Positions 12,612 through 64,000 of a stretch of DNA of 64,000 nucleotides are shown one piece after another. The notes beneath the pieces were generated by a model, which made no database searches, was not told where the DNA came from, and saw only the letters and a list, made by a program, of their open reading frames with translations. Source of the DNA: Planctomycetota bacterium (GTDB taxonomy: Bacteria; Planctomycetota; Planctomycetia; Planctomycetales; Planctomycetaceae); assembly GCA_018242525.1 (NCBI GenBank), contig JAFEBS010000055.1, positions 161,556 through 225,555 of the forward strand. Direction: 5' to 3'. The position numbers and the translations under genes are program-made. The stretch's first letter is position 1; each line of letters opens with the position of its first letter.

Positions 12612-14594
12612 TCAACTTGTCTTTGCCGCCCTTTGACGATGAAACTGAGCTGCCTTGATCAGCAGTTCGCGAGTTTCGTCGGTCAATTTCCTGGTGTCAT
12701 GCGGCCGCTCGATGAGTGAAGTCTGTGAAGCCTGATGCAAATCCCGCGTACGACGCCACTTTAATTTGTCCAACACCAGCCGAATCAGCCCTTCCGGGTG
12801 ATCTGTTCCCCTTTGTGCGGCAGCGTCCTGCGCCAAACGGTTCGCGAAATCCCGCTCGCGTGCCTGCTCGTCCAACCACACGACCAAGCCCTTCATGTCC
12901 GGGCATTCCCAGCGAGACAGCACTCTGTCAAAACTGGGGGGCCAACCTTCGTCTGCCAGGTCAAAGCAGAGGGTCAGTAAATCTCGCAAAACCTCGTGCT
13001 TGATATCGTCCGTTCCGATCTCCCGTCGAACTACGTCAATCATATCTGGTGAAGTAAAGAGGAGCTGGATCAATTCAGACTCCAACTGATCGTCTTTGGA
13101 TTGAGTTTGCTGGAGTGAAAGGATGGACCGTTTTCGCGCGTTACGTGCAGCTTCTCCGGATGGGTCGGTTGCGGGAACTTTCCGCTCCGCAGGTCGACTT
13201 GCAGGAGATTTCCGTTGACCTCGCAATTCCGATAACCGTTTGCGCACTTCCTCTTCCGGCAACCGGAGTCTTAGTGGCAACTGGCTAATGAGCAGCCTTT
13301 CCTTATTCGTTCCCATCACTCCAGGGGACACAACCAACAACTCCAGCATTCCGTCCAGCACCCGCTGTCGGGCGTCCAATGTTTCGACGCCGTGGCGCTT
13401 GATCAACAGTCGTAATTCGTACTCCCCCACGTCCGGCGCAGCCTCGATTAACTGTTCCATCGCTACGGTCCCGCGCTGGGCCAGGAACTCATCCGGGTCC
13501 AGATCGTCCGGCAGTGTTAGAATTCGCAAATCCACGTCCTGAGCCAGAAACTTCATCAATGCCCGCTCGGAAGCGTCCTGGCCGGGGCCATCGCCGTCAT
13601 AAACCAGCACCACTTTTCGAGCCAGACGCTTCAACAGTGTCACATGCAGATCCGTCAGTGCCGTTCCCAGCGTGGCCACCACATTCATCAATCCGGCCTG
13701 ATGAGCCTTGATGCAATCGGTGTACCCTTCTGTCACCAGCACCGTCCCGGTCTTCTTGATCGCCTCACGCGCCCAGTTCAATCCATAACACAGCCGACTC
13801 TTGTGGAAGACCGGGCTGTCATCACTATTCAAATACTTTGGAGCATCTTTCCACGAGTGGTCCGGAAGGATGCGTCCCCCAAAACCAACCGTGTGGCCAC
13901 GCTCGTCGTGAATTGGAAACAAGACCCGATCAACGAACTTGTCCACACAACCGCTACCGTCGGTTCGCTCCTTGATCAACCGGGCCCTCAGCAGCAAATC
14001 CGTTTCAAATTTTCCCCGCGCCCGTCGCAGCAGCCATTCACGATCGTCCGGGGAGTACCCAATCTTACAACGTGAAATGGTCGCCTGTGTAAAACCACGC
14101 TCTTTCAAATACTGTCGCGCACGTTCTCCAGCGGCCGAAGTGAGCAGGCAGTTGTGAAACTCGTCCTGCGCCCAGGCCAGAACATCATACAATCGGGGCT
14201 TTTCGGGCGATTCTGCCGGTCCGCGCCGCATCTTCGTCGGTAATTCCAAATGAGCCCGCCGCGCCAGGAATTCCAGAGCCTCCGGGAAACTCATGGCGTC
14301 ATGCTTCATCACGAACGAGTAACAGTCGCCCCCTTCACTGCAAACCCAGCATTTGTACGACTGACGTTCCGGATTGACCGTAAATGACGGATTGTGATCC
14401 TGGTGGAAGGGGCACAATCCCTTATAAACCCGGCCTCCCTGCTGTGGCTGCAGGGCAATGGTCTCGCCAATCAGTTGAACAATGTCCGTGCGCGAGCGGA
14501 CCAGTTCTTTGAACTCTTCCGATGACTGTCCTTCCACAACCTGCCCCTCGCCACCGATCGAAATCCGTTCCAAAGAAATCACGATCCCAGACAT
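12612..14594 (-). CDS. dnaG: DNA primase DnaG
   Basis: 661-residue primase that makes RNA primers for replication. The N-terminal zinc finger is CPFH ... CWVC (about residues 65-86). The catalytic core follows, with the TOPRIM motifs VTEGYTD and LVYDGDGPGQDAS and the DPDEFL segment. A variable C-terminal helicase-binding region ends the protein. Start 14594 (MSGIVISLERISIG) is preceded by GCAGG 6 bases away. The open frame continues to 14756 without family similarity. rpoD follows. No rpsU was found upstream, unlike in enteric bacteria. The C-terminal half is long and contains a Lys/Arg/Ser-rich linker around residues 455-490. Confidence 0.96.
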   Translation of the reverse strand: MSGIVISLERISIGGEGQVVEGQSSEEFKELVRSRTDIVQLIGETIALQPQQGGRVYKGLCPFHQDHNPSFTVNPERQSYKCWVCSEGGDCYSFVMKHDAMSFPEALEFLARRAHLELPTKMRRGPAESPEKPRLYDVLAWAQDEFHNCLLTSAAGERARQYLKERGFTQATISRCKIGYSPDDREWLLRRARGKFETDLLLRARLIKERTDGSGCVDKFVDRVLFPIHDERGHTVGFGGRILPDHSWKDAPKYLNSDDSPVFHKSRLCYGLNWAREAIKKTGTVLVTEGYTDCIKAHQAGLMNVVATLGTALTDLHVTLLKRLARKVVLVYDGDGPGQDASERALMKFLAQDVDLRILTLPDDLDPDEFLAQRGTVAMEQLIEAAPDVGEYELRLLIKRHGVETLDARQRVLDGMLELLVVSPGVMGTNKERLLISQLPLRLRLPEEEVRKRLSELRGQRKSPASRPAERKVPATDPSGEAARNARKRSILSLQQTQSKDDQLESELIQLLFTSPDMIDVVRREIGTDDIKHEVLRDLLTLCFDLADEGWPPSFDRVLSRWECPDMKGLVVWLDEQARERDFANRLAQDAAAQRGTDHPEGLIRLVLDKLKWRRTRDLHQASQTSLIERPHDTRKLTDETRELLIKAAQFHRQRAAKTS

Positions 14595-15139
14595 TGAATA
14601 CCTGCGGTGGTCCCCTGCTGGGAACCCTCGACAAACGCGGCGCGAACCTTGATCCACAACCGACGCTGGAGAACTGAAACACCGCAAACCGACGATTTCG
14701 TGCGGGGGGTTGACTTTTGTTGCCCCGAGAAACCGATTCGTTGGAAAATCTGCCACAACCCATCAGATTCTATCCAACCAGCCCCCATCGTCAAGCCGCC
14801 GCCGATTCCGTTCAACCGCAAATCCCGGGAACGGTTCACGGCCTATTCTGTAGAACTTTTTTGGAATTCCCCAAAACGACAATTTCCCTGCCAATTCCAC
14901 GGTATTGGACAGTTCCGGACCGATCCGCCGCACCTGCTCCACCGTGAAGAAACCGTGAACTGGACAGTTGGTTTATGCGATTTCAGGTCGGTTCCCTGAT
15001 CAGACCACGACGCCCGCCGTGCCCGATTCCAACCGGCCCGCCGGACCCGGCTTTTCTGCGATGGCTCGATTCCGGTGCGCGCAAACGAAAGCCGGAAGGT
15101 GGGATCCCGTTTGCTGGCCAACGCCCAATCCGGCGATCC
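14595..15139. other. Intergenic region upstream of dnaG
   Basis: About 545 bases between the metY terminator and dnaG. No convincing gene, tRNA or ribosomal-protein gene (such as rpsU) was found. It should hold the dnaG-rpoD promoter on the - strand, but no -35/-10 pair stands out. Confidence 0.5.
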
Positions 15140-17469: not shown

Positions 17470-18921
<1,452 letters not shown>

Positions 18922-19267
18922 GACAATCACAACAGAGGATCCGTCGACGCGTATGTCGGCAGATCATTCAAGCACGACACCGCGGTAATTCCGAGTGACA
19001 ATCGAGTTTCGAGGGCTGGTCTTCGAGCCGCGATCCAGAATCCAGCCGTCAAACTCGTTCCATCCGCTACAACACCGCGCCGTTGGTGACTTTTCGACTG
19101 CGGAATTCCTGATTTCCCCGTCGTTCACCACGGGCGCAACTACGTTTATTGATCACGTCACAAGCAACTGCGATTTACCATCACATCTTTTTGTGGTTGC
19201 TTCGATTTTCCATCTGCGGGCCGCAACATTTTACGTAGAAGTCTTCGTCTCCAAGGAGGAACAGAAG
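18922..19267. other. Intergenic region, cls to small ORF
   Basis: 346 bases between divergent genes, more AT-rich than its surroundings toward the right end. It must hold the cls promoter (-) and the promoter for the small ORF (+). No other feature is recognised. An open frame from 18995 continues into the small ORF, but its first part looks non-coding. Confidence 0.4.
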
Positions 19268-22715: not shown

Positions 22716-25664
22716 ATGGACATCCGGCAGACGAGACTCGTCGAAGACATGGCCGGTCTGTTCCGTGGTGAACTGGCCTGCGATCCGGTGTCGACATCGT
22801 TGTATGCGACCGATGGCAGCCTGCACCAGGTCACGCCACTGGCAGTGGCGTGTCCGCGCGATCGCGACGACCTGATCACCCTGGTCAATTATGCGGCCGA
22901 ACAGCATCTGCCGCTGATTGCGCGGGGGGCTGGAACCAGCGTCGGCGGCGAAGCCCTGGGGAACGGCATCATTGTCGATTTCGCGCGGCACATGCACGGC
23001 ATCGAGCAGATTGGAGACCAGACTGTCCAGGTTCAGCCGGGGGTTGTTCACAGCGTATTGAACCGAGTCCTGGCGCAAACGGGACGCTGTTTTGCTCCGG
23101 ATCCCTCCAACTCGTCCACGACCACAATCGGCAGCATGGCCGCGCTGGACGCCGCTGGATCCCATTCGTTACGGTCGGGGTCCACGCGTGATCACGTTGT
23201 GGGGCTGGAAGCTGTCCTGGCCAATGGAACCTGCTTCCACGCTGAGTTGGAACCTTTGGAGTTCGCCCCTGCCGCTGAGCTGACCGATCCGGGTCTGGTT
23301 ACCAAACGTGAGATCGTTCGGCAACTGGCCCGACTGCTGACGAAACATGCGACGTTGATCGGCGAGAAGCAGCCCGCAGATTTGCCCCGCAACCGGGCCG
23401 GTTACTTTCTGCGCGGGACCCTGTCGCCGACTCACCTGAATCTACCGCGGTTGCTGGTCGGATCCGAGGGAACCCTGGCGATCTTCTCATCCATCACACT
23501 GCGAACTGTTTCCTTACCCGCTCACCGGGGAGCGATGCTGATTTCGTTTGGATCATTGGAAGGGGCCGTGCGCGCGGTCGCCGATATTACCGACGACGAC
23601 CCCAGCGCATGCGACCTGTTGGATCGACGACTGCTGACACTGGCCCGAGAAACGGATACTCGATTTGAGCGACTGTTGCCAGCCGGTGCCGAGGCGGCAT
23701 TGCTGGTCGAGCATGTCGGTTTCAGCGAGAACGAAGTGGCAGGCAAACTGACGTCCCTGACAAAGCGCCTGGGCGAATTGACCGATTCCGGGGCCACCGC
23801 GTTTGTCGCACGGACGGCGGAAGAGTTGGAGTTTCTCTGGTCGCTTCCACTCCGCGTCGTGCCATTGCTGAATGGGGTCCGGGCTCCGACCAGTAGTCCG
23901 CTGCCATTTGTTGAGGACGTCGCGGTTCCGCCTGCAGCGCTTGAGGAGTTTGTTGTCCGCATGCGGAGGATCCTGCAGCGTCACGAAGTGACGGCGTCGC
24001 TCTATTCCCATGCTGGAGTCGGCCAGTTGCACATTCGTCCATTTCTGCCGCAACCGACGATGGCGAATGCGTCTCGAATGGAGGCCTTGGCGCGAGACCT
24101 GTACCACGCGGCCTTGTCACTGGGCGGATCCATCAGCGGTGAACACGGGCTGGGACTGTCACGAACCGCCTTCCTGCGATCTCAATACGGCGAACTGTAC
24201 CGGGTCTTCCAGGAGATCAAGCGACTGTTCGACCCGCATAACCAGTTGAATCCGGGCAAGGTGCTGACGGACGATCCCCATCTGACCGTCCATCATTTGC
24301 GGCCGGTCTCCGCGCCGGACGCTCAATTGTTTGATCTGCAGTTGCGGTGGTCGCCGCAACAGATGAACGAAACTGCCGTCGCGTGTCACGGTTGCGGTGC
24401 CTGCCGAACCCAGGAACCGGCCCAGCGGATGTGCCCGTTCTTCCATGCGATCCCGTCCGAGGATCGATCTCCCCGCGCCAAAGCCAATGCTGTGCGCGCG
24501 GTGTTTGATGGCCGCATTGCTGCCCATGAACTGGCATCGCCCGAAATGCGGCAACTGGCAGATCGCTGCTTCAACTGCAAGCAATGTGAGCGTGAATGTC
24601 CCAATCATGTGGATATTCCGCACTTGATGATTGAAGCCAAGGCTCAATACCTGGCGACCAACGGGCCCCGGACTTCAGAATGGTTTCTGTCCCGTGTTCA
24701 TTCGTGGGGCGATTTCTTGTGTCGGTTCTCCTGGCTGGTCAATCCCCTGCTGGGAAATTCCGCCGCTCGATGGGTCCTGGAACGGACTTTGGGTGTGGCG
24801 GCGGCACGTCGACTGCCGACATTTGCCCGGCGCCCGTTCCTGAAGTCTGCCCGGCGCGAGTGGACATCTCCGCCCGCCACAATTCGTGGTGGCCAGCCGG
24901 TGGTTTATTTTGTCGATCACTTCGCGAACTATCACGACCCGGAACTCGCCACCGCGTTTGCTCGCATCCTGGAATTCAACAGCCAGAAGGTCCATGTTCC
25001 ACCGCGTCAATTGCCGTCGGGCATGGCGCTGATCTCGATGGGAGACCTTGATACGGCACGTTCCATCGCCGAAAACAATGTTCGTATTCTTGCCGAATTT
25101 GCGCGTGAAGGGAGCCCCATTGTCTGCACCGAACCTGCAGCGGCGGTCTGCCTGAAATTCGAGTATCCCAAACTTGTCAGCCATCCGGACGCTCAGGTGG
25201 TGGCCGCTCAGGTGGTGGAAGCGGGTACGTTTTTGTCCGGACTGCGTCGACATGGTCAATTGCGCACCGAGTTCGCCGAGTTACCCTTGATCGCCACCTA
25301 TCACACGCCGTGCCACATGAAAATGCTGGGCCCGACGACCCCGCTGGCAGATCTCTGCAGTCTGATCCCGTTTTTCGCCGCCCGCAGATCCGAAAACGGC
25401 TGCTCGGGTCTGGCCGGAACCTTTGGACTGACGCGTGAACACTTCCAGGAATCGCTGGAGATCGGCCGCGACCTGATCGAGCGGATGCGCGCCGACGATC
25501 ATCATCTGGGCCTGACGGAATGCAGCAGTTGCCGCCTGCAGATGGAACAGCGTTCGCCCACCCCCACATTACACCCACTCAAGATCCTCGCCCTGGCCTA
25601 CGGCCTGATGCCGGAGATCCATCGCCGACTGAAGCCGAATACCCGGAAATGGCTGACATCGTAA
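22716..25664 (+). CDS. FAD-linked oxidase / Fe-S oxidoreductase fusion (GlcD-GlcF or D-lactate dehydrogenase type)
   Basis: 982-residue flavo-iron-sulfur enzyme, expected to oxidise a 2-hydroxy acid such as D-lactate or glycolate and pass electrons to the respiratory chain. A PCMH-type FAD domain comes first (LIARGAGTSVGGEALG; PDPSNSSTTTIGSMAALDAAG), then the FAD-oxidase C domain ending in GEHGLGLSR and NPGKVL. From about residue 550 there are two ferredoxin-type cysteine groups (CHGCGAC...CP and CFNCKQCERECP). The C-terminal cysteine-rich domain has TPCHMK, GCSGLAG and ECSSC. All three domains are intact. The gene is the last of a + strand run and converges on the protease-nuclease gene. Confidence 0.92.
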   Translation: MDIRQTRLVEDMAGLFRGELACDPVSTSLYATDGSLHQVTPLAVACPRDRDDLITLVNYAAEQHLPLIARGAGTSVGGEALGNGIIVDFARHMHGIEQIGDQTVQVQPGVVHSVLNRVLAQTGRCFAPDPSNSSTTTIGSMAALDAAGSHSLRSGSTRDHVVGLEAVLANGTCFHAELEPLEFAPAAELTDPGLVTKREIVRQLARLLTKHATLIGEKQPADLPRNRAGYFLRGTLSPTHLNLPRLLVGSEGTLAIFSSITLRTVSLPAHRGAMLISFGSLEGAVRAVADITDDDPSACDLLDRRLLTLARETDTRFERLLPAGAEAALLVEHVGFSENEVAGKLTSLTKRLGELTDSGATAFVARTAEELEFLWSLPLRVVPLLNGVRAPTSSPLPFVEDVAVPPAALEEFVVRMRRILQRHEVTASLYSHAGVGQLHIRPFLPQPTMANASRMEALARDLYHAALSLGGSISGEHGLGLSRTAFLRSQYGELYRVFQEIKRLFDPHNQLNPGKVLTDDPHLTVHHLRPVSAPDAQLFDLQLRWSPQQMNETAVACHGCGACRTQEPAQRMCPFFHAIPSEDRSPRAKANAVRAVFDGRIAAHELASPEMRQLADRCFNCKQCERECPNHVDIPHLMIEAKAQYLATNGPRTSEWFLSRVHSWGDFLCRFSWLVNPLLGNSAARWVLERTLGVAAARRLPTFARRPFLKSARREWTSPPATIRGGQPVVYFVDHFANYHDPELATAFARILEFNSQKVHVPPRQLPSGMALISMGDLDTARSIAENNVRILAEFAREGSPIVCTEPAAAVCLKFEYPKLVSHPDAQVVAAQVVEAGTFLSGLRRHGQLRTEFAELPLIATYHTPCHMKMLGPTTPLADLCSLIPFFAARRSENGCSGLAGTFGLTREHFQESLEIGRDLIERMRADDHHLGLTECSSCRLQMEQRSPTPTLHPLKILALAYGLMPEIHRRLKPNTRKWLTS

Positions 25665-25730: not shown

Positions 25731-27833
25731 TTACAGCCGGATCTGCTCATTCGCTGTCAGTGCCGCTGGCGGAGCCTCTTCACCGGCCACGGCTTCCAAC
25801 AGACCGTCTTTGTCGAGACTGTCGAATTTCCGCAGGGTGCCGAAGTCCAGTTGGGTCAGTTTTTCGATCTGGCTGACACGAACCTGGAACGTCTTTGCCG
25901 CATCTTCAGCGGTCGACTCAAGAGCGGCCAACAGGTCTTCCTGGCTTACCAGAAAACCTGCTGAGCCAAGCGACCCGTCGTCGCGGACAAATGCGACGAC
26001 TTTCCAGAACCGGGTCGGAACCTGGACGCCGCTGAAATCTGGATCGTCCTTTCCGAAGATGGGGCCAGTGAAAATCGTGATCCGGCGATCGTTCTTGTTC
26101 GCATTGTCGAGCAGGTAATTTTCCAGGCCCTGCCACAGGGCTTTCCCCTGATTGAAACGCGAATGTTGCGGGCTGCAGTTTGTGAAATGGAACGTGTCGT
26201 CATTGGCGGATTTGGCTATGGCAACGGATCGTCCCCAGGCGGGATCCAGCCGGCGCACCAGGTGCCCCCGATCAAACGGCTTTCCGTACCATTCGTTCCC
26301 GATCTGCAGGCTTTTGTCGACGCGGTGGTCGAAGATCCAGCGGTCTTGTTCCCGTTTGCCGAGGTTTTGTTCCTGTGTTCCATCGATGTTGACGGCGGTA
26401 AAGAACGCCAGCCGACGCTGCTTGTTCATGACCACGCTGTAGTGGTGGTACTGCAATTCATATGGGGCACCGGTTCCTGGTTCGTTGTTGATCGCGGCAG
26501 CCTTCACTTGCGTCGTCGTCAACACGGGCAATGGAACACTCAGCTTTCCACCCCCCAGGAAATTCGGGTTGTACCCTTCACGTTTACTGTAATCCGTGTC
26601 GATCTCGACCTTCTCCTGAGCCGCGGGTGCCACACTGCCCGTAGTTGTGGCCGCGGTTGTCGGAGTTCCCAGGCGGACGGTCACCTGCAATGGAATCGTC
26701 CAGGTGACGCTGCCAGAGTCCTCCGCCGGTTTGGAAAGAGTGACTGAATTCTGAACGGGTTGTGACATGGTTTCTCCTTCGGTACGAGCCCACGCAGCGG
26801 CCCACTCGGAAGTTCCGTCAACGGTGCCTTGAAAGTTCAGTGCGGCATCGACAACGCGCGAATCGCGCGCCAGCTCGAAGGTGGGGACGGCGTAGTTGGC
26901 TTCCAGGTAAACGCCAGCAAAATGCAAGCCGATGATCGTTCCCGTTTTGACGTCGATGACGGCCGACCCGGAGTTGCCCCCCAGGGTTGAACTGTCGTGG
27001 GTCATCGCCATCACTTCGCTTTCAAAACTGCGGACTTTCGCCCGCCCCCGGATCTTCCCGGGTTGCATTCGCTTGACGCCAAAGATCGTGCCGAAGACCC
27101 GCTTCTGGACGTCGGCATCATTGCGGAAGTCCTGGGCCGGGTATCCCACCACCACGACATCCTGATCGACCATGCCATTCGGATCGGTGACGGATAGCGG
27201 CAACGGCCTGGCAGTTGCAGGCAGACCTTCCATACGCAGCAGTGCCATGTCCCAGAACGGATGGACCATGACCACGTCAGTCACCCGGATCAGCGTCCCC
27301 GGGTCGGGTTCAGGCATCCCGTTTTCCCGACGAAAGTCGACCAGCGATCCCCCCGCGTGGAAACGCACATGTGTCCCCACGCCGTCGGAGAACAGCTTCG
27401 CCACATGACGATTGGTCATCATCAGGTTCGGACCCACAACAAACCCGGTTCCGCCATAGGGGATATTTGGGGTCAGCGGCAGTTCCAGGCGGCCGATTGA
27501 AGGGAAAAGAGGCTCCAACCGCTGGTGGATTTCCGGAGCGTTCAAATGTTTCCAATCGTCCATCGGTACGGTTTCGTAGGCGTTCGCCTTGATGAAAACG
27601 ACCGGTCGCTTGTCCGGGAGTACAATCGCTTCCAGGCCGAACAGTTCGTCCGATGTCAACGATTTGCCCAGCTTGAGCTTCTCGAGTGCAGACGCGGTCG
27701 GATCGATTTCCAGAGCCTCAAATCCGCCCTCCAATCCGACCTGCGATTGGGGCAGGGAGATCGATTCCAGTCCATCCTTGGCGACTTGAGTCAGCATGGC
27801 CTTGAGGCGTTTGGCGCGTTCGTCCAGATCCAT
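25731..27833 (-). CDS. Trypsin-like serine protease fused to DNA/RNA non-specific endonuclease
   Basis: 700-residue two-enzyme protein. Residues ~1-115 form a helical N-terminal domain (LEPLFPSIGRLELP) of the kind found before proteases in conflict-related proteins. Residues ~120-330 are a trypsin/V8-like protease with all triad residues: His143 in MTNRHVAK, Asp195 in PFWDMALLR and Ser288 in GGNSGSAV. A Thr/Ala/Pro linker follows. Residues ~455-660 are a non-specific nuclease domain with the DRGH motif (Asp521-His524), the metal-ligand Asn552 in FTNCSPQ and Glu571. No signal peptide is visible, so it probably acts in the cytoplasm. GAGGA lies 6 bases before the start. It has no obvious operon partner. 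The arrangement suggests proteolytic control of a toxic nuclease; this is inference. Confidence 0.9.
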   Translation of the reverse strand: MDLDERAKRLKAMLTQVAKDGLESISLPQSQVGLEGGFEALEIDPTASALEKLKLGKSLTSDELFGLEAIVLPDKRPVVFIKANAYETVPMDDWKHLNAPEIHQRLEPLFPSIGRLELPLTPNIPYGGTGFVVGPNLMMTNRHVAKLFSDGVGTHVRFHAGGSLVDFRRENGMPEPDPGTLIRVTDVVMVHPFWDMALLRMEGLPATARPLPLSVTDPNGMVDQDVVVVGYPAQDFRNDADVQKRVFGTIFGVKRMQPGKIRGRAKVRSFESEVMAMTHDSSTLGGNSGSAVIDVKTGTIIGLHFAGVYLEANYAVPTFELARDSRVVDAALNFQGTVDGTSEWAAAWARTEGETMSQPVQNSVTLSKPAEDSGSVTWTIPLQVTVRLGTPTTAATTTGSVAPAAQEKVEIDTDYSKREGYNPNFLGGGKLSVPLPVLTTTQVKAAAINNEPGTGAPYELQYHHYSVVMNKQRRLAFFTAVNIDGTQEQNLGKREQDRWIFDHRVDKSLQIGNEWYGKPFDRGHLVRRLDPAWGRSVAIAKSANDDTFHFTNCSPQHSRFNQGKALWQGLENYLLDNANKNDRRITIFTGPIFGKDDPDFSGVQVPTRFWKVVAFVRDDGSLGSAGFLVSQEDLLAALESTAEDAAKTFQVRVSQIEKLTQLDFGTLRKFDSLDKDGLLEAVAGEEAPPAALTANEQIRL

Positions 27834-28155
27834 GACATGTCCTCAGAATTCAGGTCAATGAAGTAACGAGATTGAAATGATTCGCAGCAATCTGCGGGCG
27901 GCTATTGCCGTGGTGCCTGTGGTATACCATCTCCGCCGGCTCACCCTGTGTCGCAACCCGACGCTTCAATAAAAGCATGCGTTGTAGTACGCCCGACGGT
28001 AGCACTGTCATGATTGGCCCTCAGCGTTTTCGCGACCCTGTTTCGGAAGGCCCCAAAGTATGGTGCTGCATTTTGGCGAATGCAATGCGACTCAAAGATA
28101 TCCACCGAAGCAGAGTTGCACCGAATGGGATCAGAGCGACGTAGGCTGGTGCAGT
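27834..28155. other. Intergenic region left of repeat R2
   Basis: 322 bases upstream of the - strand protease-nuclease gene. Short frames on both strands look non-coding. The promoter of the nuclease gene should lie here. Confidence 0.4.
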
Positions 28156-28401: not shown

Positions 28402-29100
28402 ATGATCCAGATTCGCAAAGCGTCAGAGCGTGGTCACGCTGATCACGGCTGGTTGAACACGTTCCACACGTTTTCATTCTCATCGTACCAGGATCCCAAC
28501 CACACCCGGTTTCGTTCTCTACGAGTCATGAACGAGGACTGGGTTGCCCCCGGGCAGGGGTTCGGAACGCATCCTCATCGTGACATGGAAATCGTGACCT
28601 ATGTCCTGGAGGGGGCGTTGGAACACCGCGATTCAATGGGAAATGGCGAGGTTTTGCGTCCCGGTGAATTCCAACGAATGTCCGCCGGAACCGGGATCAC
28701 GCACAGCGAATTCAATCCGTCCTCAACGGATCCGACGCACTTGTATCAGATCTGGCTGTATCCCGAGCAGAAGGGGATAGCGCCCAGTTACGAACAGAAG
28801 CAGTTTGCGGACTCCGGACGCCACAACCGGTTGCAACTGGTGGCCTCGCGGACCGCGGCGGAGGGTTCGCTGTTGATTCAACAAGATGCACGGATATACC
28901 TGTCGACGATTGACGCGGGTGTCTGCGTGGCGCACGAACTGCCGGCCGAACGATACGGGTGGGTGCAGGTGCTGCGCGGTTCAGTAGAACTCAATGGCCA
29001 CTCACTCCAAACCGGCGATGGTGCCGCAATCAGCGACGAAAGGCACTTGAGTTTTCACGGCACAACCAACGCAGAAGTTATGATATTCGATCTGGCATAG
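28402..29100 (+). CDS. Pirin family protein (YhhW-like)
   Basis: 232-residue bicupin. The N-terminal pirin domain shows HTFSFSSYQDP, the metal-binding HPHRDMEIVTYVLEG and GTGITHSEFNPS, supplying the His/His/Glu set of the first cupin. The second cupin (DQDARIYLSTIDAG ... GDGAAISDE) is weaker, as in E. coli YhhW, a quercetin dioxygenase in vitro. AAAGGAG sits 7 bases before the ATG. It is followed 57 bases later by an Old Yellow Enzyme on the same strand. The two probably form an electrophile or redox-stress operon. Confidence 0.93.
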   Translation: MIQIRKASERGHADHGWLNTFHTFSFSSYQDPNHTRFRSLRVMNEDWVAPGQGFGTHPHRDMEIVTYVLEGALEHRDSMGNGEVLRPGEFQRMSAGTGITHSEFNPSSTDPTHLYQIWLYPEQKGIAPSYEQKQFADSGRHNRLQLVASRTAAEGSLLIQQDARIYLSTIDAGVCVAHELPAERYGWVQVLRGSVELNGHSLQTGDGAAISDERHLSFHGTTNAEVMIFDLA

Positions 29101-57261: not shown

Positions 57262-58482
57262 TCAGGCTGTCAAATCCACGAGACCTTTCACGGCGTCGCA
57301 CAAGACGTCAACTTCGTCTGCCGTGTTATAAAGATGGCAAGAGACACGCAGATAGCGATGACCATGGCATTCAGTGACCAGAGTCTCGATCCGGTACTGG
57401 TCCCACAAGGCCTGTTGCAGCGGATGAATGGCATTTGGCCGGGCCTTCCGGGACGCGTCCACGCGAAGCGGAATGGCGATCATGGAACCGTACCAGTCGG
57501 CGGTGTCCGGGATTGTGGCCGCGCGACCCAGGATTGGTTCCAGTTTCTGGCGGGCATACCTGGCCAGGTCATGGGTCTGCTGCTGAAACGTCTCCAGGCC
57601 GACTCGCTCCAGGAAATCAATCGCGGCCGGAACTGACAGAAATGGGGCTGGATCACGCGTCCCCAGCCAGTTCAGCGAGTCTTGCCATACGGGCGGTGAG
57701 CCACCCAGGCTGCGGCCCCAACTGGTCAGATGCGGTTTCAGTTTCGACTGCCAGTTTCGGCGAACGTACAGAAAGCCGGACCCAAACGGTGCGGACAGCC
57801 ATTTGTGCAGGCTGGCACAGTAAAAATCGCAATCGATCTGGCGCAAGTTGACCTTCAACATCGCAATCGCGTGCGGCCCGTCAATGCAGACGGGAATTCC
57901 GAGTTGTCGGGCCTGTCGGCAGACCTCTTCGACGGGAAAGTTGATTGCCGTGGGTGACGTGATGTGGCTGATCACGATCAGTTTTGTGCGTGGCGTGATC
58001 GCCGCGAGAATCGGCCCGGAAATGTCTTCGGGTTGCTCGAATCGTCGGGGTTCCGCATCGCCATCTCCCCGTCCCAACGTGGGAGAAACGATTTTGGCGC
58101 CCACGCGGTCACAGACCGAGCGCCAGATCCGAAAGACGGCTCCGTATTCGTGATCGTTGAGCAGGATTTCATCACCGGCTTCCAGCGGCAGCGATTCGGC
58201 AACGACATTCATCGCGACCGTGGCATTGTCGACGAACACCAGGTCGCGATGGTCGACTCCGATCCACTGCCCGAGTCGCCTGGCAGCGTCTTCCAGTGCA
58301 CCGTCAAACTGGCGCAGATAGAAATCCATCGGGTTGGCGTTCAGCCGCTGCGACCACTGCTCACGCACGGCTTGAACGGCACGCGGCGACGGCCCGAACG
58401 AGCCGTGATTCAGATAGGTCACCCCGTCAGCCAAAGCCCAGTCACCGCGACCGGCTGGCAACGACACACTGTTTTCCGCCAT
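57262..58482 (-). CDS. Class V aminotransferase (isopenicillin-N epimerase-like PLP enzyme)
   Basis: 406-residue PLP enzyme, aminotransferase class V/NifS fold. Marks are YLNHGSFGPSPRAV, VFVDNATVAMNVVAESL, LLNDHEYGAV, ISHITSPTAINFPVEEV, CIDGPHAIAM and the PLP lysine in CASLHKWLSAPFGSGFLYV (Lys227). This subfamily is often named isopenicillin-N epimerase, but the true activity is usually a desulfurase or racemase-like reaction on small amino acids. Start 58482 has AGAGG 5 bases upstream. It lies 125 bases upstream of the thioredoxin-like lipoprotein on the same strand. Confidence 0.92.
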   Translation of the reverse strand: MAENSVSLPAGRGDWALADGVTYLNHGSFGPSPRAVQAVREQWSQRLNANPMDFYLRQFDGALEDAARRLGQWIGVDHRDLVFVDNATVAMNVVAESLPLEAGDEILLNDHEYGAVFRIWRSVCDRVGAKIVSPTLGRGDGDAEPRRFEQPEDISGPILAAITPRTKLIVISHITSPTAINFPVEEVCRQARQLGIPVCIDGPHAIAMLKVNLRQIDCDFYCASLHKWLSAPFGSGFLYVRRNWQSKLKPHLTSWGRSLGGSPPVWQDSLNWLGTRDPAPFLSVPAAIDFLERVGLETFQQQTHDLARYARQKLEPILGRAATIPDTADWYGSMIAIPLRVDASRKARPNAIHPLQQALWDQYRIETLVTECHGHRYLRVSCHLYNTADEVDVLCDAVKGLVDLTA

Positions 58483-58580
58483 TGGAACCTCTGATCCTCG
58501 CACGGCCTGTGGATTCTGCCTGACAGTTCATAATCGATTCCGGTGAAGACAGAAACCGAAAGTCGGAAAGTCCTGCGTCA

Positions 58581-62879: not shown

Positions 62880-64000
62880 TCAATTGGGTCCAAACGGTTT
62901 TGGTTTTCTCTTTCCGGAACCGCGTCCTCCCGCGCCGCGTCCCTTTTTTCGCTGGGGCGCGGCGGTTTCTTCTTCGAGTGAGACTTGTTGGCCGATTTGC
63001 TTTTTCAACTGCAGAATCCGGTCGCGCAGCTTCGCGGCGCGTTCGAATTCCAGGGCGTCGGCGGCCACCAGCATTTCTGCCTCCAGTTCGTTCAGGTATT
63101 CCTGCGTGACGTACTGAGTTTCGTCGGCGACTCCACCGGCTTCCTGAGCGATTCGTTTGGCCTGGATCTCTTCTTCGATCCCCTTCTTGATGGCCTTTTT
63201 GATCGTTTCGGGAGTGATCCCGTGTTCCTGGTTGTAGGCCAGTTGCAATTCGCGCCGGCGGTTGGTTTCGTCGATCGCCTGCTGCATGCTGTCTGTCACC
63301 GAATCGGCGTACAGGATGACCTCGGCATTGACATTCCGGGCCGAGCGTCCGATCGTCTGGATCAGGCTGGTGGCGCTCCGCAGAAATCCTTCCTTGTCGG
63401 CATCCAGGATGGCCACCAGCGACACTTCAGGAAGGTCGATCCCTTCACGCAGCAGGTTGACCCCGATCACCGCGTCGTACTTGCCCTCGCGCAGATTTCG
63501 CAGGATTTCGACCCGTTCGAAGGCATCCAGCTCCGAGTGCAGCCAGGCGCATTTGACTCCTTCTTCGATCAGATAGGTCGTCAGGTCTTCCGACAGGCGC
63601 TTGGTCAGCGTGGTGACCAGCGTTCGTTCGCCGATGTCTGATCGACTGCGAATCTGCTGCATCAGGTGAGGGATCTGGCCGCGTGCCGGGTGGATCGTGA
63701 TCCTCGGGTCCACCAGGCCGGTGGGACGAATCACCTGCTCGACAATCTCCCCCTCGGACTGCTCCAGTTCCCAGTCGGCGGGAGTGGCGGAGACAAACAC
63801 AGTCTGGCGACGGCGGGCGTTCCATTCCTCGAACTTCAGAGGTCGATTGTCCAGGGCCATGGGCAGCCGGAATCCGTGATCGACCAGTGTCGTCTTGCGT
63901 GCGTGGTCTCCATTGAACATGGCCCGGATCTGCGGGACAGTGACATGGGATTCGTCGATAAACAACAGAAAGTCTTCGGGGAAGAAATCGAGCAGCGTAA
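62880..64000 (-). CDS. uvrB: UvrABC system protein B (C-terminal part; gene runs past the right edge)
   Basis: 373 residues of the excision-repair helicase-like subunit. The frame is open to the window end ([19 protein letters not shown]), so the Walker A half is missing only because of the window. Visible: [11 protein letters not shown], the beta-hairpin-distal [13 protein letters not shown], helicase motifs [48 protein letters not shown], and the UVR domain ([24 protein letters not shown]) near the C-terminus. A basic Gly/Lys/Arg-rich tail of ~25 residues follows the UVR domain. Confidence 0.97.

Follow-up and report, generated by a model that had tools for sequence, protein, structure and literature searches.

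A V8-like protease and EndoG-like nuclease fused in a planctomycete protein, a probable effector of the NucA-trypsin conflict-system type with a candidate strand adaptor in its linker

The protease-nuclease fusion encoded at 25731-27833 (minus strand, ATG start, 700 aa) was probably a nuclease effector under protease control, belonging to the NucA-trypsin type of conflict system. The window, that is, the whole stretch of DNA analyzed, was 64,000 nt long, and all features of the fusion given below lie on its minus strand. An AGGA Shine-Dalgarno-like site (27840..27843) was found 6 nt ahead of the main ATG. The conserved catalytic residues, the V8/Esp and EndoG folds superposing at Z > 20 and the conflict-type neighbors of the relatives were counted in favor of this assignment; against it were counted the solitary gene, the unlinked candidate partners on contigs C15 and C78, the solitary relatives and, weighing most, the dispensable nuclease of the studied protein LypC together with the decayed nucleases of loci L044 and L058.

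Two enzyme domains were recognized by Pfam in the protein, Trypsin_2 at residues 128-303 (E 7e-17) and Endonuclease_NS at residues 449-665 (E 2e-49). An AlphaFold2 model was built from 35 sequences (window and fetched genomes) and reached a mean pLDDT of 81.5. The protease domain of this model (residues 72-335, 26829..27620) superposed on two glutamyl endopeptidases, Esp and V8, with a Z of about 23 and an rmsd of 2.7 over 204-205 residues (VIA-align; Z 23.1 for 204 aligned residues), and V8 was also matched in the profile search (E 1.6e-16). The intact triad claimed in the preliminary description, His143 (27405..27407), Asp195 (27249..27251) and Ser288 (26970..26972, in GGNSGS), was found at exactly these positions and, together with T283 (26985..26987) and H304 (26922..26924), was invariant wherever aligned in 35 relatives. 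T283 is the counterpart of the S1 residue Thr/Ser190 of glutamyl endopeptidases and H304 that of the S1 residue His213. Glu- and Gln-specific enzymes are marked by these two residues (chymotrypsin numbering), His213 being common to both specificities (PMC5508998). Since both markers were matched, the protease would be expected to cleave after Glu or Gln, not after Lys or Arg. Like the V8-type (S1B-like) glutamyl endopeptidases, the fusion has a chymotrypsin fold with an intact triad and both S1 equivalents; unlike them, secreted with a signal peptide, it has no hydrophobic N-terminal stretch, its first 30 residues being charged and helical as judged by eye. Hence, the absence of a signal peptide noted earlier was upheld.

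The second domain (residues 412-677, 25803..26600) superposed on EndoG and Serratia nuclease with a Z of about 21 and an rmsd of 2.7-2.9, and the profile search matched EndoG (E 4e-21). The EndoG/NucA fold and an H-N-E active site were thus present by Pfam, superposition, alignment and profile search. The nuclease motif had been described as DRGH with Asn552 and Glu571; DRGH (521-524, 26262..26273), N552 and E571 (26121..26123) were indeed present and conserved. Nevertheless, the metal-ligand Asn is likely N561 (26151..26153, in RFNQG) and not N552 (in TNCSPQ), as judged from the RFNQG motif and from alignments with EndoG and NucA. N561 was taken to be the equivalent of the metal ligand N119 of Serratia nuclease, and N552 to be a conserved active-site Asn. 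H524, N552 and E571 were invariant in all 27 nuclease-bearing relatives, and N561 was kept in 26 of the 27. Because the triad and the nuclease residues are invariant in relatives, their co-occurrence in one protein is not a matter of chance. In two other loci (L044, 8878-12687; L058, 5809-7785), nuclease domains without catalytic residues were observed behind intact proteases.

The N-terminal extension (residues 1-71, 27621..27833) was modeled with helices at 3-17, 45-54 and 61-75, at low to moderate confidence and without a recognisable sensor fold. No EAD1 match was obtained with Pfam or with hhalign against an EAD1 set (probability 0.2%), and no fold match was found for residues 1-122 (model pLDDT 70); an EAD1 domain or a CARD/Death fold at this end of the protein drew no support. 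The proposal that the helical N-terminal domain may be the sensor or adaptor was not supported: the helices matched no such family, and the adaptor-like element sits in the linker instead. A PADLOC match to a "nacht" model, covering the N-terminal and protease part (48-317), was set aside because no P-loop was noticed there.

Furthermore, Glu68 (27630..27632) emerged from its conservation as a candidate self-cleavage site. It was kept in 30 of 32 aligned rows of alignment A2 and in 27 of 27 of alignment A1, and it adjoins the segment A69-I-V-L-P, which sits where the mature N-terminus of V8 and Esp falls (model residue 72 pairs with V8 residue 2). In the glutamyl endopeptidase of Streptomyces, self-processing takes place at a Glu(-1)-Val1 bond (PMC5508998). 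Given this precedent, and with a conserved Glu placed before a V8/Esp-type mature N-terminus, residues 1-68 could be a propeptide lost by self-cleavage. The model itself weakens this reading: E68 is placed within helix 61-75, and the register deviates by one to three residues.

In a class survey of 397 genomes, 49 contained a match to the fusion with an E-value no higher than 1e-10, with a patchy spread. Of the same-genus genomes listed, 14 in number, only 3 had any match, the fusion's own genome included. In PLSDB, 110 plasmid records, mostly from rhizobia, contained a match to the fusion. The phage collection yielded one weak match, confined to the nuclease, and no sign of phage carriage.

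The neighborhoods described are those of the best matches, and the association reported is a description, not an enrichment statistic. EAD1-trypsins were found beside relatives in L094, L097 and L098, and EAD1, nSTAND1 and Lipase_3 genes were also present in L094. The neighbor was an S8 subtilase in L095, a TIR gene of the CAP12 type in L100 and a WD40-Lipase_3 gene in L103, and TIR, CHAT and S8 genes were found in L046. One contig (L034/L035) carried TIR, SLOG, S8 and LRR-Roc-COR-TIR genes together with several protease and protease-nuclease genes. In L044, a trypsin and STAND NTPase operon was observed, with a subtilase added to the fusion itself. L049 and L058 contained trypsin and AAA-ATPase/STAND-like operons matching LypA-LypB-LypC, and L052 combined MoxR/SAV_2336 genes with an EAD5-trypsin, as in a MoxR/VMAP-like ternary system. 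Caspase genes were also found among the neighbors. A lack of defense association among homologues would have spoken against the preliminary description; instead, relatives adjoin EAD1-trypsins, STAND NTPases, subtilases, lipases, TIR and SLOG genes. The check that it proposed, a search for the same fusion beside known defense genes, found such genes next to relatives and not at the window locus. Two relatives, on plasmid records of Pseudomonas aeruginosa (L050) and Paracoccus (L057), were solitary among metabolic genes. The former (L050, 7779-9707) has ilvA on one side and a LysR gene on the other, its surroundings look chromosomal, and from the gene order it is presumably PA1327. In the literature searched, PA1327 was mentioned in mutation tables only.

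Fusions of NucA and trypsin have already been named as "System 3" conflict systems by Kaur, Burroughs, Iyer and Aravind in 2020 (PMC7159879). These authors proposed a proteolytic cascade deploying NucA, with a role in defense or cell death as a prediction (PMC7159879), so the protease-control interpretation given here is largely theirs (Kaur et al., 2020). As in System 3, the window fusion combines a trypsin-like peptidase and a NucA endonuclease in one protein, and the subtilisin, EAD1-trypsin and STAND NTPase partners described for System 3 are also the partners of its relatives (PMC7159879). The fusion differs in being solitary, in its V8/glutamyl-endopeptidase-like S1 residues and in the absence of the optional operon partners from the window locus, homologous ones being found elsewhere in its own genome. 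The linker strand motif and the versions with a lipase, Endonuclease I, PLD or PtuA, all described below, were not found in the main text of that study (PMC7159879). What was added here is the placement of the window protein in this class, the V8-type specificity, a trypsin-PtuA paralogue, effector swapping, and the motif, which also occurs in a candidate partner encoded by the same genome.

The paralogue, on contig C70, is 47% identical to the fusion over the first 350-360 residues. In this protein (L033, 6300-8714), the V8-type protease forms the N-terminus of a Septu PtuA ATPase (E 3e-68), and the next gene (L033, 8686-9513) encodes PtuB (E 8e-47); an integrase, a D5-type primase and a D12 methylase were found nearby. 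With this protease-PtuA paralogue and its adjoining PtuB, a known defense system of the same genome, Septu, is, judged by sequence, served by the same protease module as the fusion. No description of a trypsin-like protease-PtuA Septu fusion was found in the literature searched. Across the proteins analyzed, PtuA, Lipase_3, NucA plus astacin, Endonuclease I and PLD stood behind this module, and the effectors were interchangeable behind it.

Additionally, two sets of partner-type genes were found in the same genome, both unlinked to the fusion gene. Contig C78 (L113, 11691-16217) encodes an EAD1-trypsin, an EAD1 helical protein and an nSTAND1-like protein that includes a membrane stretch, a cluster homologous to the genes flanking the fusion of genome G317 in L094. 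Contig C15 (L161, 9849-11681) encodes a 610-aa TPR-S-type protease, solitary among housekeeping genes and, from end to end, a homologue of the L045 TPR-S-trypsin (33%, E 1e-68). On the same C15 stretch (L161, 613-2744), an AAA ATPase was followed by a small gene that resembled DUF4276 by eye, a candidate defense pair.

The fusion and the C15 protease have a short element in common. In the fusion, the linker (residues 336-411, 26601..26828) was disordered in the AlphaFold2 model over residues 354-408, and within it lies a strand motif of about 12 residues, WTIPLQVTVRLG (residues 378-389, 26667..26702), with the consensus TIPLxVxVxLG. A profile of 20 columns, built from 27 relatives, was used to search whole genomes. 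Over a set of 14 genomes, it gave 23 matches at E 9e-5 or better, the next being only at 0.05, and in the 397 genomes of the class it gave 33 matches in 21 genomes. All 33 were V8-type protease and/or hydrolytic effector proteins (NucA, Lipase_3, Endonuclease I, PLD), about 11 of them from outside the training set of the profile; Endonuclease I was identified in L103 by a PDB match (E 1e-6) and in the others by the same sequence motif. The second match of the fusion's own genome (E 7e-5) was the C15 protease, which ends in FSVPLQISVRIG.

The position of the motif varied with the type of protein. Proteins consisting of the protease only (L134/L106, L148, L141) carry it at their very C-terminal end, whereas in stand-alone nucleases and lipases (L147/L103, L138, L139, L126, L159, L160) it lies close to the N-terminus; in protease-effector fusions it is mid-protein. 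Stand-alone effectors with the motif were found in seven genomes (G317, G388, G372, G363, G417, G291, G512), and all seven also encode a protease with the motif. The motif was not a universal part of NucA-trypsin proteins, as a short-linker type lacks it. In genome G363, a row of four genes (L103, 2-10469) was observed that encodes WD40-Lipase_3, protease-motif-Endonuclease I, protease-motif-Lipase_3 and motif-NucA.

Kaur et al. described an "EAD principle", by which sensor and effector proteins have homotypic adaptors in common (PMC7159879). The distribution of the motif follows this principle, a single strand replacing the helical domain. Like EAD, Death-fold and amyloid signalling motif adaptors, it is a small element that recurs in both sensors and effectors of one genome, which suggests homotypic recruitment; it differs in being a single strand of about 12 residues, predicted to be disordered, and not a helical domain, and no EAD1 match was found. 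The disorder predicted in the monomer would fit a segment that folds upon assembly. We put forward, at slightly less than even odds, that TIPLxVxVxLG may be an undescribed homotypic adaptor through which sensor proteases, such as that of C15, recruit unlinked, interchangeable killers (NucA, Endonuclease I, Lipase_3, PLD), in the manner of Death-fold, EAD or amyloid motifs in other systems. No mention of the motif or of the lipase versions was found in the main text of the System 3 study (PMC7159879), most of the literature not being searchable. Were the motif a real adaptor, bacteria would build apoptosis-like protease-effector complexes by means of a twelve-residue tag, and scans for this tag would find unlinked defense parts that neighborhood searches miss.

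Taken as a protease-controlled effector, the fusion would work as follows. In the resting state, a single chain would contain both the Glu-type, V8-like protease and the EndoG-like nuclease with a disordered linker between them, the full-length chain or self-sequestration restraining the nuclease activity. A trigger protein sensing invasion, most likely the C15 TPR-S-type protease and perhaps also the C78 EAD1-trypsin/EAD1/nSTAND1-like cluster, would assemble with the fusion through contact between their common TIPLxVxVxLG motifs. The clustered proteases would then cut the linker, perhaps also at E68, and free the nuclease, which would be toxic and destroy nucleic acid, so that the cell stops or dies, with a putative anti-phage role. 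With the present analysis, a predicted and little-tested class of bacterial immune effectors gains a likely Glu-type protease, named catalytic and S1 residues, a sensor-effector motif and a candidate partner protease in the same genome.

For linker cleavage that would free a nuclease, the likeliest way of working, the precedents are the trypsin-opened nucleases of Hachiman/AVAST and the CARD-NLR systems. A trypsin-activated pro-nuclease is known in Hachiman/AVAST (Tuck et al., 2025; PMC12799240), and the nuclease-protease pairs of Hachiman, AVAST, Lamassu and DRT have the same logic, a trypsin-like protease controlling a DNA-cutting enzyme (PMC12799240). In these systems, the protease module hops between defense systems (PMC12799240), to be compared with the trypsin-PtuA fusion of the genome analyzed here. 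The nuclease of Tuck et al. is a separate upstream MBL-fold protein opened at Ile sites (PMC12799240), whereas that of the window protein has the EndoG/NucA fold and is part of the same chain.

A variation would make the gene a source of two products, with an internal ribosome-binding site also yielding the nuclease as a subunit of its own, which would begin with the strand motif and dock onto the protease. An internal AAGGAG (26774..26779), 5 nt ahead of the in-frame ATG of Met356 (26766..26768), is a better site than the AGGA of the main start, and the resulting nuclease-only product would have 345 aa. Across 43 fusion genes, a strong Shine-Dalgarno site with ATG occurred at 3 of 32 linker ATGs and at 1 of 377 other ATGs (Fisher p 0.0017; p 0.016 without the window gene), and the separate nuclease gene of L103 begins just ahead of the same strand motif. 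Nevertheless, the internal start was noticed first in the window gene and is missing from nearly all other fusions, so it was rejected as a conserved feature of the family, and the site may be a relic of gene fusion. A dual product was therefore considered possible for this gene, at a tentative level only.

A second explanation makes the protease the active part and treats the nuclease as a passenger with a structural or regulatory role, the proteolytic signal being relayed to an unlinked effector. This is the case for the closest studied protein, LypC of the CARD-NLR-like LypABC of Caulobacter crescentus, in which the protease is needed for GTA lysis and the nuclease is dispensable: S296A abolishes lysis, H471A and N505A do not, and deletion of the nuclease domain destabilises the protein (PMC13236601). 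Like the fusion, LypC has an N-terminal trypsin-like domain, a flexible linker and a C-terminal endonuclease, a likeness by description and not by sequence (PMC13236601). LypABC-like operons were found among the relatives (L049, L058), and the decayed nuclease sites of L044 and L058 also favor a passenger. By contrast, no LypA or LypB stands beside the window fusion, and a Paraburkholderia LypB-like ATPase used as query gave no match in its own genome, in a search without a positive control. Furthermore, all key residues were intact in 26 of 27 aligned nucleases of the planctomycete set, and a stand-alone motif-bearing nuclease exists without a protease (L103). The intact sites, together with the stand-alone motif-bearing nucleases, argue that selection acts on nuclease catalysis here. 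Since these sites are kept, we hold that catalysis probably matters in the planctomycete set, and a passenger nuclease was judged improbable.

The surroundings of the gene bear on a third explanation, a conserved housekeeping or stress protein, related to conflict systems by ancestry alone and acting, for instance, in programmed lysis or in the turnover of damaged DNA. The fusion gene is solitary in a housekeeping setting. It adjoins a convergent FAD-linked oxidase gene (22716-25664) and, on the other side, a divergent pirin-like gene (28402-29100), and the rest of the window held ScpA, DnaG, sigma-70 factor, DUF1501-type and cytochrome-type planctomycete genes, all named from sequence. No second trypsin, S8, EAD1 or STAND partner was present at the locus, and no defense neighbor was found in the 64,000-nt window, where PADLOC on 41 ORFs returned housekeeping look-alikes only. 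Judged by sequence, with the pairing of match and gene inferred from pooled matches, those to DRT models were DnaG (12612-14756), that to DrmC a cardiolipin-synthase-like PLD (17470-18930), that to DndA/SspA an aminotransferase-like protein (57262-58503) and those to helicase models UvrB (62880-63965). This setting, along with the solitary relatives in metabolic settings (the P. aeruginosa and Paracoccus plasmid records), favors a housekeeping role. The patchy spread, with any match in 3 of 14 same-genus genomes listed (own included), and the strong link of relatives to EAD, STAND and TIR genes oppose it, and this role was considered quite improbable. The preliminary idea that the protease controls the nuclease in a conflict setting drew support from the neighbors of the relatives, and not from the window gene, which has no defense neighbors.

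V8, Esp and Serratia nuclease are secreted enzymes; nevertheless, a secreted enzyme that breaks down protein and nucleic acid outside the cell, or a toxin for delivery into competitors, was hardly credible here, as no signal peptide or transmembrane stretch was seen in the fusion (sequence and AlphaFold2 model), no secretion genes adjoin it in the window, and the STAND and EAD partners of its relatives are intracellular.

A short C-terminal tail was also observed in common between the fusions and the stand-alone nucleases of alignment A1. It is DDIVL-like, and in the window protein it reads NEQIRL and is predicted to be disordered.
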